A stretch of DNA of 39,936 nt, taken from a virus. Shown piece by piece: positions 2,254-4,496 of the stretch (the stretch's first letter is position 1; each line of letters begins with the position of its first letter). The position numbers and the translations under genes are program-made. The DNA is taken from positions 1 through 39,936 of the IMG/VR virus record IMGVR_UViG_3300036886_000082; one strand, given 5' to 3'. The notes under the pieces are model-generated. The model was given only the letters and a program-made list of their open reading frames with translations. It searched no databases and had not been told where the DNA came from.

Positions 2254-2718
2254 ATGACCAAAATCAACTGGACTCTCGTTACTTGGAAGATCAAAGACCT
2301 CATCCCCCATCCCCAAAATCCACGCAAATTAACATCCGATCAATATCGCCATCTAAAACAGTCGATGGATAAATTCGGATATATCGATAAAATAATCATT
2401 AATCAGAATGGTAGTATAATCGGAGGCCATCAGCGTTATCAAATCCTCAAGAAAGATAAAGTCAAAGAAGTCGAATGCTGGGTGCCTGATGTCCTATTGG
2501 ATGATAATGAAATTAATGAATTGATGGTTAGATTAAATCGAAATCATGGCGAATGGGATTATGATATACTTGCTAATAGTTTCAATGTCCCAGATTTACT
2601 TGAATATGGCTTTACAGCTGATGAACTACACTTCGACGTTGAAGGTATAGCAGCCGATGAATCAGAAGATAAACCCAAGAAAGAAAAATCCTGTCCCCAT
2701 TGTGGAGGTGCATTATGA
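2254..2718 (+). CDS. ParB/Srx-fold N-terminal domain protein
   Basis: A 154-residue protein with the ParB/sulfiredoxin fold signature: LIPHPQNPRKL near residues 15-25 and the GSIIGGHQRYQILKK motif around residues 53-67, where GGHQRY is the phosphate-binding GxxR-type box. In phages such single-domain proteins are usually found next to DNA methyltransferases; nuclease or CTPase activity is known for some ParB-fold relatives but cannot be read here. It ends with a CPHCGG knuckle. Its TGA overlaps the methyltransferase ATG (2715-2718), so the two are translationally coupled. Confidence 0.8.
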   Translation: MTKINWTLVTWKIKDLIPHPQNPRKLTSDQYRHLKQSMDKFGYIDKIIINQNGSIIGGHQRYQILKKDKVKEVECWVPDVLLDDNEINELMVRLNRNHGEWDYDILANSFNVPDLLEYGFTADELHFDVEGIAADESEDKPKKEKSCPHCGGAL

Positions 2719-4496
2719 ACGCACAATTGGATCTATTCCCTCAGACAGACACCCAACAAGTCATCCAAGGTGATTGTCTTGAAGTAATGAAGCAATATCC
2801 TGATAATCATTTTAATTGTGTATTGACAGATCCCCCTTATGGCCTCAAATTCATGAATAAATCATGGGATCATGGCATACCTGGGATTGAATACTGGAAA
2901 GAACTATTGCGAATCTGTAAGCCTGGGACAATGGGCCTATTCTTCGGGGGGACTCGCACCTATCACCGATTAACATGTGTCATTGAAGATGCTGGATGGG
3001 AGATTAGGGATTGTTTAATGTATGTCTATGGTTCGGGCTTTCCCAAATCCCATAACCATTTCGGACTAAAAGGATATGGAACAGCATTAAAACCAGCATA
3101 TGAACCGATCTTGCTTTGTATGAAACCATTGGATGGAACATATGCTAAGAATGTTGAGAAATGGGAGAATGGGGGAATTAATATTGATGGGTGTAGGATT
3201 GAAAGTAATCTACATTCAAAAGAAAGAAAATCCTCTACTGAATTTAATCAATCCTCCGAATGGAATAAACATAAAAACATTGATACATTTTATGATGCTT
3301 CTAAAGGCCGCTGGCCCGCGAACATCCTTTTTGACGAATTTAACGAACGAATATTATTCTTGAAGGACAATGTTTCTCATGATATAATCCTAGCCATTAA
3401 GGAGTATTTTCATGATTACAAATTGCCTAATCTGCCAAAAAGAGATAGAAACCTACCCAAGCCGAGTAAAGAAAAACAAAGCCAAGTTTTGCAGCAAGAA
3501 ATGTTACCACAAGGAATTGAGCATTCGTCAGAAGGGCGAGAAACATTTTATGTGGGGAAAGAAACACAAGAAAGAATCAATCCAAAAAATGCAACAACGA
3601 CCAGTAAAAAAGGGGAAAGAGAATCCAGCTTTCAAGGGACACTGGATGAGCCGAGGCTACCGCTATATCAACCTAGAGAGTCTTCCGAAAGATCAGCAGG
3701 AAATAGCTATTCAAATGACAAAGCGGAGTGGGATTGCGGAACATCGCCTAATGATGGCGTTGAAATTAGGAAGACCATTACTGGCCTGCGAAGTTGTTCA
3801 TCATGTGAATGGAGTGAAGGACGACAACAGAACGGAGAATTTAGAAGCAATGGACAATTCGACACACAAGAAAGAGCACAAGGAAATATTGAAGGAATTG
3901 AGAGCACTGAGAAAGGAGAACGAAGACTTAAGGTTCTTGCTTGCGACATACCAGAAAAGTGGCTGAAATACTTTGAAGAAACGGGGTGTGAAATTAGGTC
4001 CCCGTATTGTGCGGCGGAGATGCTTGATGAACAGAGTGGAGAATTGAAATCAGGATCTGGGAACAGACGGCCTAATGGTGGTGGTGATATGTTCTCAGGA
4101 TTTTCACCAATGAAGGCGGAATTTGAATCTTCTTCCGGTGGTGCATCGCGTTTTTTCTATTGCGCTAAGGCTTCGAGTAAAGAAAGGAATTCTGGGCTTG
4201 AGGGGATGGCTGATATTCCCGCTTCTTGTAATTTAAGATCACAAGGTGGTCTTACTAAACCAAAAAAAGAATTTATGGTTAAAAATTCTCACCCAACAGT
4301 AAAGCCTATCAAATTACTTGAATATCTACTCAAATTGATCGCCCCTGCAAATACGCTAGTTATAGATCCATTCCTTGGATCAGGATCAACATTAATAGCA
4401 GCTAAAAACCTTCATATTTCTGGAATTGGTATTGAAAAAGAAATTGATTATTGTAATATTGCAAAGAAAAGAATTGAAAATTGGGAGAATGAATGA
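2715..4496 (+). CDS. DNA N4/N6-type methyltransferase with an internal insertion
   Basis: Start at 2715 follows a GGAGG site and overlaps the ParB-like stop. The frame gives 593 residues. Motif IV, TDPPYG, is at residues 38-43; SHPTVKP and DPFLGSGS (motif I) lie near the C-terminus, so the order is IV then I, the beta class of amino methyltransferases. It would methylate adenine or cytosine N in a short target, for protection or regulation. Between the conserved GRWPANILFDE (around 3308-3340) and AAEMLDEQSG (around 4012) lie about 670 bases that hold an HNH gene in the +1 frame. The methyltransferase frame has no stop there, but its translation becomes Ser/Glu/Gly/Arg-rich and looks disordered. 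Whether the full product is active is unknown. Confidence 0.85.
   Translation: MNAQLDLFPQTDTQQVIQGDCLEVMKQYPDNHFNCVLTDPPYGLKFMNKSWDHGIPGIEYWKELLRICKPGTMGLFFGGTRTYHRLTCVIEDAGWEIRDCLMYVYGSGFPKSHNHFGLKGYGTALKPAYEPILLCMKPLDGTYAKNVEKWENGGINIDGCRIESNLHSKERKSSTEFNQSSEWNKHKNIDTFYDASKGRWPANILFDEFNERILFLKDNVSHDIILAIKEYFHDYKLPNLPKRDRNLPKPSKEKQSQVLQQEMLPQGIEHSSEGRETFYVGKETQERINPKNATTTSKKGERESSFQGTLDEPRLPLYQPRESSERSAGNSYSNDKAEWDCGTSPNDGVEIRKTITGLRSCSSCEWSEGRQQNGEFRSNGQFDTQERAQGNIEGIESTEKGERRLKVLACDIPEKWLKYFEETGCEIRSPYCAAEMLDEQSGELKSGSGNRRPNGGGDMFSGFSPMKAEFESSSGGASRFFYCAKASSKERNSGLEGMADIPASCNLRSQGGLTKPKKEFMVKNSHPTVKPIKLLEYLLKLIAPANTLVIDPFLGSGSTLIAAKNLHISGIGIEKEIDYCNIAKKRIENWENE
3412..3966 (+). CDS. HNH homing-type endonuclease nested in the methyltransferase gene
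   Basis: A 184-residue frame in the +1 phase relative to the methyltransferase. An AAGGAG site (3399-3404) sits seven bases before its ATG. Domains in order: a four-Cys zinc finger (CLIC at 5-8, FCSKKC at 26-31), a NUMOD3-like DNA-binding segment (GEKHFMWGKKHKKES, 42-56), a NPAFKGHW element, then the HNH core with EHR at 110-112, HH at 130-131 and a downstream DNRTENL, ending in a charged helix. This is a free-standing homing endonuclease architecture. The nested location, with both frames open for 185 codons, is unusual. Confidence 0.85.
   Translation: MITNCLICQKEIETYPSRVKKNKAKFCSKKCYHKELSIRQKGEKHFMWGKKHKKESIQKMQQRPVKKGKENPAFKGHWMSRGYRYINLESLPKDQQEIAIQMTKRSGIAEHRLMMALKLGRPLLACEVVHHVNGVKDDNRTENLEAMDNSTHKKEHKEILKELRALRKENEDLRFLLATYQKSG

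Follow-up and report, generated by a model that had tools for sequence, protein, structure and literature searches.

A phage DNA methyltransferase gene with an out-of-frame HNH endonuclease gene inside it, and the avoidance of stops in the host frame

An HNH gene inside an unbroken methyltransferase ORF

How does an HNH endonuclease gene come to lie inside a DNA methyltransferase gene whose own reading frame has no stop across it, and is that frame kept open by selection? The window, by which we mean the whole stretch of DNA analysed, is a virus contig of 39,936 nt. We found that its methyltransferase ORF runs unbroken from 2718 to 4496 on the plus strand and encodes a beta-class DNA methyltransferase of 592 aa (PF01555, PHROG 67), with a ParB-like gene (2254-2718, phrog_620) adjoining it upstream on the same strand and terminase and portal genes downstream. 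N6_N4_Mtase homology flanks an insert, and both methyltransferase halves match (PF01555). The N-terminal part (2718-3338, plus strand), delimited by alignment to uninterrupted homologues, extends from motif IV (TDPPYG) to GRWPANILFDE, and the C-terminal part (4011-4496, plus strand, stop codon at 4494-4496) carries AAEMLDEQSG, HPTVKP and DPFLGSGST with the invariant residues retained.

At the insertion point, more than 80 IMG/VR homologues without the insert read GRWPANVLFDE-x-AAEMLDEQSG. Between GACGAA (3333-3338) and GCGGCG (4011-4016) there are 672 nt in the window against 3 nt in these relatives, so that the insert amounts to 669 nt (223 codons), a multiple of three. The interval 3339-4010 (plus strand), which includes the 3 nt of one native codon, gives 224 codons with 0 stops in the methyltransferase frame, compared with 27 stops in the third frame and 11, 7 and 11 in the antisense frames. 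The preliminary description had placed the insertion at 3340-4012, which is right to within 2 nt, and had counted 185 open codons; the frame is open even longer, across the whole insert. The 5' end of the insert (3339-3411, plus strand; FNERILFLKDNVSHDIILAIKEYF) lies upstream of the HNH start, belongs to the methyltransferase frame only and is predicted to form a helix. The 3' end (3967-4010, plus strand; KYFEETGCEIRSPYC in the methyltransferase frame) contains an inverted repeat, ACGGGG...CCCCGT (3981-4005), just 5' of the insert's terminus and with no T run behind it. Searching the fetched loci gave no homologues of either end in the methyltransferase frame; an empty-site allele did not turn up at high DNA identity. 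Since the insert splits the conserved motif FDE/AAEMLDEQSG, activity of the long methyltransferase is not assured.

The HNH gene (3412-3966, plus strand) encodes 184 aa and has its own AAGGAG ribosome-binding site (3399-3404, plus strand), 7 nt before the ATG. All the elements first read from the sequence are present: the zinc-finger cysteines, a NUMOD3 segment (PF07460, E = 1.4e-4) and an HNH_3 core (PF13392, E = 6.8e-8) whose active site is intact, with invariant H130, H131, N139, N143, H152 and H156. The local RNA fold near the ribosome-binding site is not unusual (z -1.0). An AlphaFold2 model of the HNH protein has a mean pLDDT of 82.5, and its top PDB fold match is I-HmuI (1u3e), at low significance (probability 0.84, E 0.54). 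A single-sequence query of IMG/VR confirmed no relative of this HNH protein; relatives were gathered there with alignment queries.

I-HmuI, like other HNH endonucleases encoded in phage group I introns, is of the same nuclease class, and such introns typically sit in conserved motifs and carry HNH ORFs. The insert might thus be an unrecognised self-splicing intron, removed from the mRNA before translation, which its position in a conserved motif, its HNH ORF and the 6-bp inverted repeat at its 3' end would fit. However, the self-splicing intron in which HNH genes of the I-HmuI type sit was not found at the window: Rfam gave no match there even at E up to 5, nor in 16 sources at gathering thresholds, and neither Rfam nor folding revealed a group I core structure around the HNH ORF. 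Additionally, the non-ORF part of the insert is only ~116 nt, and the insert folds no better than shuffled sequences (z +1.2). An intron had been named at the outset as the finding that would undo a reading through the insert, and the Rfam searches did not produce one.

Host-frame stops are avoided in the window and across phage loci

A stop arises in the host frame of the window wherever an HNH codon ending in T is followed by a codon starting with AA, AG or GA. We observe a codon-final T in 0 of the 72 cases before AA, AG or GA, compared with 28 of 111 elsewhere (Fisher P = 1.8e-7). Synonymous permutation within the gene, which preserves both protein and codon usage, predicts 9.5 host-frame stops where 0 are observed, and 0 of 20,000 permutations left the frame open. 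Together, the permutations and the avoidance of codon-final T indicate that the methyltransferase frame has shaped which codons the HNH gene uses, and chance is excluded as the explanation of the open frame. When relatives are compared at equal HNH identity, the host-frame peptide is barely better conserved than a control frame, indicating that it is openness that is selected, as for a tolerated loop, and not a defined fold. A spliced intron or ribosomal bypass needs no open host frame, so its maintenance argues that ribosomes read through the insert. In an AlphaFold2 model of the long methyltransferase (17 sequences), the core is confident and matches M.BceJIV over both halves (TM 0.63); the insert lies mostly below pLDDT 45, and the host-frame loop is accordingly predicted to be disordered, a low pLDDT from so shallow an alignment being weak evidence.

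To place the window among other phages, loci were gathered by HNH-based and methyltransferase-based IMG/VR searches; they are the best 80 of each search, mostly metagenomic, and not a random sample. HNH genes were found by profile and classed by their surroundings, gene starts were assigned mechanically, and L010 (a stop in its forced translation) was left out of the alignments. With the window counted, and among the best 80 per search, 72 HNH genes at 63 loci lie inside an ORF with methyltransferase homology. Removal of duplicates, recognisable inteins and four ambiguous cases (L191, L196, L334, L336) leaves, on the same basis, 45 HNH genes at 39 loci that are out of frame or antisense in methyltransferases without a recognisable intein, the intein split having been made by eye from host-frame ends, plus Pfam on some hosts. 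The nested arrangement proves common in phages. Thirty-four of the 45 are in relative frame +1, seven in +2, which is the window's class, and four are antisense.

Across these 45 HNH genes we find 0 host-frame stops, compared with 127 expected under synonymous permutation, so the selection on the open frame that had been expected from the window alone is borne out. The avoidance is extreme in the +2 and antisense classes and less so per gene in the +1 class, for which 44.5 stops are expected in 34 genes and ~10 of 34 would be open after permutation. Free-standing HNH relatives have 5.7 (+1) and 10.5 (+2) stops per 100 codons, and are open in 3 of 106 and 0 of 106 cases, respectively. Because the label "nested" presupposes an open frame, the fairer count is that of HNH genes flanked by both methyltransferase halves: 52 lie in a single ORF together with both halves, and 5 were flagged otherwise, of which 1 is convincingly broken (L200). 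There the frame is really broken at the first HNH gene, and a second HNH gene is counted against the same break (read by eye); among the other flagged cases, L317 is split upstream of its HNH gene, and L282 and L314 contain several methyltransferase genes. Homologues with a broken frame, which the preliminary description had set as a test of its reading, are thus represented by one clear case against 52 intact ones, and the objection mostly fails. Of the 104 loci selected by methyltransferase, 101 carry a single uninterrupted ORF, and the other 3 are cut off by the contig edge.

A host frame held open by selection speaks against a spliced intron, which would have no reason to avoid host-frame stops, yet 45 of 45 non-intein inserts have none; we regard an intron at the window as very unlikely. 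A second alternative is that the HNH element inactivated the methyltransferase and that the open frame is accidental or serves only transcription-translation coupling. Phage methyltransferases are often dispensable, as PMC11855218 argues, the host-frame peptide is not conserved, and L200 is a split methyltransferase that persists. Nevertheless, the stop avoidance goes far beyond accident, the methyltransferase flanks retain their catalytic motifs with a low dN/dS (0.07 in L031/L046, the closest insert-bearing pair), and for ribosomes to reach the HNH start the frame would have to be open only as far as that codon, with no need of openness across the gene itself. We therefore consider inactivation unlikely.

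Several individual loci extend the picture. In L200 (1666-4092), the methyltransferase is split by an HNH gene near the window's site and its C-terminal part starts from a separate ATG, much as in the genes-in-pieces cases; a likeness to the ends of the window's insert, noted by eye only, was dropped as unproven. Antisense HNH genes in an open methyltransferase ORF occur in L181 (7712-8308 and 8522-8986, two in one methyltransferase), L086 (3420-4037) and L346 (2276-2782). The isolate Escherichia phage BUCT618 (OM735461; L188, 1402-2004) is laboratory-tractable and carries an HNH gene (PF13391/PF01844) out of frame in an annotated methyltransferase that spans 989-2851 of L188, with 0 host-frame stops. 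The methyltransferase of L045 holds a different nested ORF (2713-3195), which has paired CxxC and weakly matches NinG-like sequences (E 0.007); this suggests that nesting may extend beyond HNH_3. Mahavrat gp62/gp63, flagged as nested from annotation, are actually adjacent genes.

Insertion sites, HNH relationships and inteins

Insertions occur at methyltransferase profile positions ~94, ~112, ~157-200, ~201 and ~270-290, each of which tends to one relative frame, and such coupling of position to frame across loci is as site-specific homing predicts. The window's site is position ~201, where among the loci examined only the window has an HNH gene in one ORF with the methyltransferase. The proposed search for homologues with the same nested HNH gene gave a divided answer: the kind occurs at 39 loci, the window among them, the window's very insert was found at no other locus, and members of the broader HNH family turn up at varied sites and in varied hosts. 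In an HNH protein tree built on few columns and with many open forks, 26 changes between nested and free states are needed, and on the starred branches at least 5 are unavoidable for the +1 methyltransferase class; we take these changes to reflect several origins or transfers, and not as a count.

Upon examining the inserts at position ~94 (L086, L282, L308, L313, L314, L330, L333, L343 and L350), we observe intein-like host-frame ends (YG-CLSEDTEIL...FVTGN-SGFPKS) with an out-of-frame HNH gene in relative frame +2. Of these, L333 and L343 were scanned with Pfam, which recognised no intein in either; the set reads, from the host-frame ends, as an intein with an out-of-frame endonuclease. Similarly, L223 (2005-4230) is a long ORF, a terminase intein, with an HNH gene (3408-4052) out of frame (+1), and further +1 HNH genes lie in long ORFs of L215, L224, L227-L229, L231, L236, L244-L246, L248-L252, L256, L263 and L266. 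Hint/Intein_splicing domains were present in 5 of 5 scanned long-ORF hosts (L215, L223, L228, L251, L256), and in the scanned intein hosts the HNH gene sits at the usual place of the in-frame endonuclease domain. Overall, 18 unique out-of-frame HNH genes in long, intein-type ORFs contain 0 host-frame stops compared with 56 expected.

The window's insert could itself be intein-like, translated in frame and spliced out as a protein, with the HNH gene as its out-of-frame endonuclease. Such elements exist in relatives, at methyltransferase position ~94 and in Hint/Intein_splicing ORFs of terminase and other proteins, but the window's insert neither starts with Cys/Ser nor ends with His-Asn, Pfam detects no Hint domain in it, and we find this reading hardly credible.

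Published precedent and a proposed mechanism

The idea itself is not new. The arrangement is that of the "ShiLan domain" of mycobacteriophage ShiLan gp65 (Arsenault, Gosselin and Gogarten 2025, PMC11855218; earlier Gosselin et al. 2023, PMC9957025). Pacc40 provides a second case (PMC11855218) and Applejack a later one (PMC12613952). Of what was first proposed for the window, the out-of-frame HNH gene, the selected open methyltransferase frame and a loop predicted to be disordered all stand; the remark that no description existed has to be withdrawn (PMC11855218). ShiLan and the window share an HNH ORF out of frame inside an N6/N4 DNA methylase, a methylase frame without a stop, no detectable intron or intein signature, and a host-frame translation predicted to loop out. 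When the window's HNH protein was compared with 50,697 phage records, ShiLan-type methylases topped the list at 30-31% identity. The list is ordered by the product of coverage and identity; by E-value, some free-standing HNHs score slightly better.

The insertion site, which bears on whether two elements are the same and is unneeded for their being of the same kind, differs, being profile position ~112 in ShiLan and ~201 in the window. The relative frame is +1 in ShiLan and +2 in the window, and the ShiLan HNH gene starts with GTG without a recognisable ribosome-binding site, whereas the window's has ATG with AAGGAG; ShiLan is a mycobacteriophage, and no actinophage link is shown for the window. 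At site ~112 (L305 2983-4668, L294, L288, L300), the insert begins, in the host frame, with residues similar to the native stretch that follows the insertion point (PIIMCSKP / PIIMAMKK), possibly a target duplication as reported for ShiLan; by eye, no ShiLan-like copy of the downstream target was seen at the start of the window's insert. HNH genes lodged where a phage gene is functionally critical are likewise known from Aeh1 mobE in nrdA and T4 mobA in gene 60/39, whose host genes are split into separate coding regions (PMC2988022), in contrast to the one ORF of the window. The accessible part of PMC11855218 contains neither a test of stop avoidance nor an antisense case; what is new relative to it is where the insert lies, its frame and separate ribosome-binding site, the statistical demonstration that stops are avoided, and the antisense cases. 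The out-of-frame HNH genes inside inteins may be new as well, and earlier work may exist (bioRxiv 2025.01.02.630785, cited by PMC11855218).

We consider it likely that an HNH homing gene was inserted in the methyltransferase without a splicing device, the host frame being threaded through it and the methyltransferase kept with a loop. The endonuclease gene would have entered at a conserved codon of the phage methyltransferase gene, and synonymous codon choice in it would avoid every methyltransferase-frame stop. Ribosomes starting at 2718 would then make the 592-aa methyltransferase, presumably functional, whose variable (target-recognition) region would contain a long disordered loop, and those starting at 3412 on the same mRNA would make the endonuclease. 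By nicking or cutting the uninterrupted methyltransferase target of a co-infecting phage, the endonuclease would allow repair to copy the insert. The patchy distribution in the published precedent (PMC11855218, PMC9957025) counts for this explanation.

More broadly, we lean towards the view that phage homing endonucleases can occupy a conserved gene in a third general manner, frame threading, alongside introns and inteins. It would operate in sense or antisense, with synonymous codons selected for an open host frame and a disordered loop tolerated; it would have arisen repeatedly and at several sites of one methyltransferase family, and would also place endonucleases inside inteins. What looked like a peculiarity of one family becomes a widespread pattern that can be measured, in that avoidable host-frame stops are avoided, which indicates that the host reading frame is in use, where earlier work could only suppose so. 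The stop-avoidance test can be applied to any nested ORF, and annotation pipelines that forbid overlaps miss such endonucleases. How a selfish gene persists in a useful gene without splicing is now directly testable.
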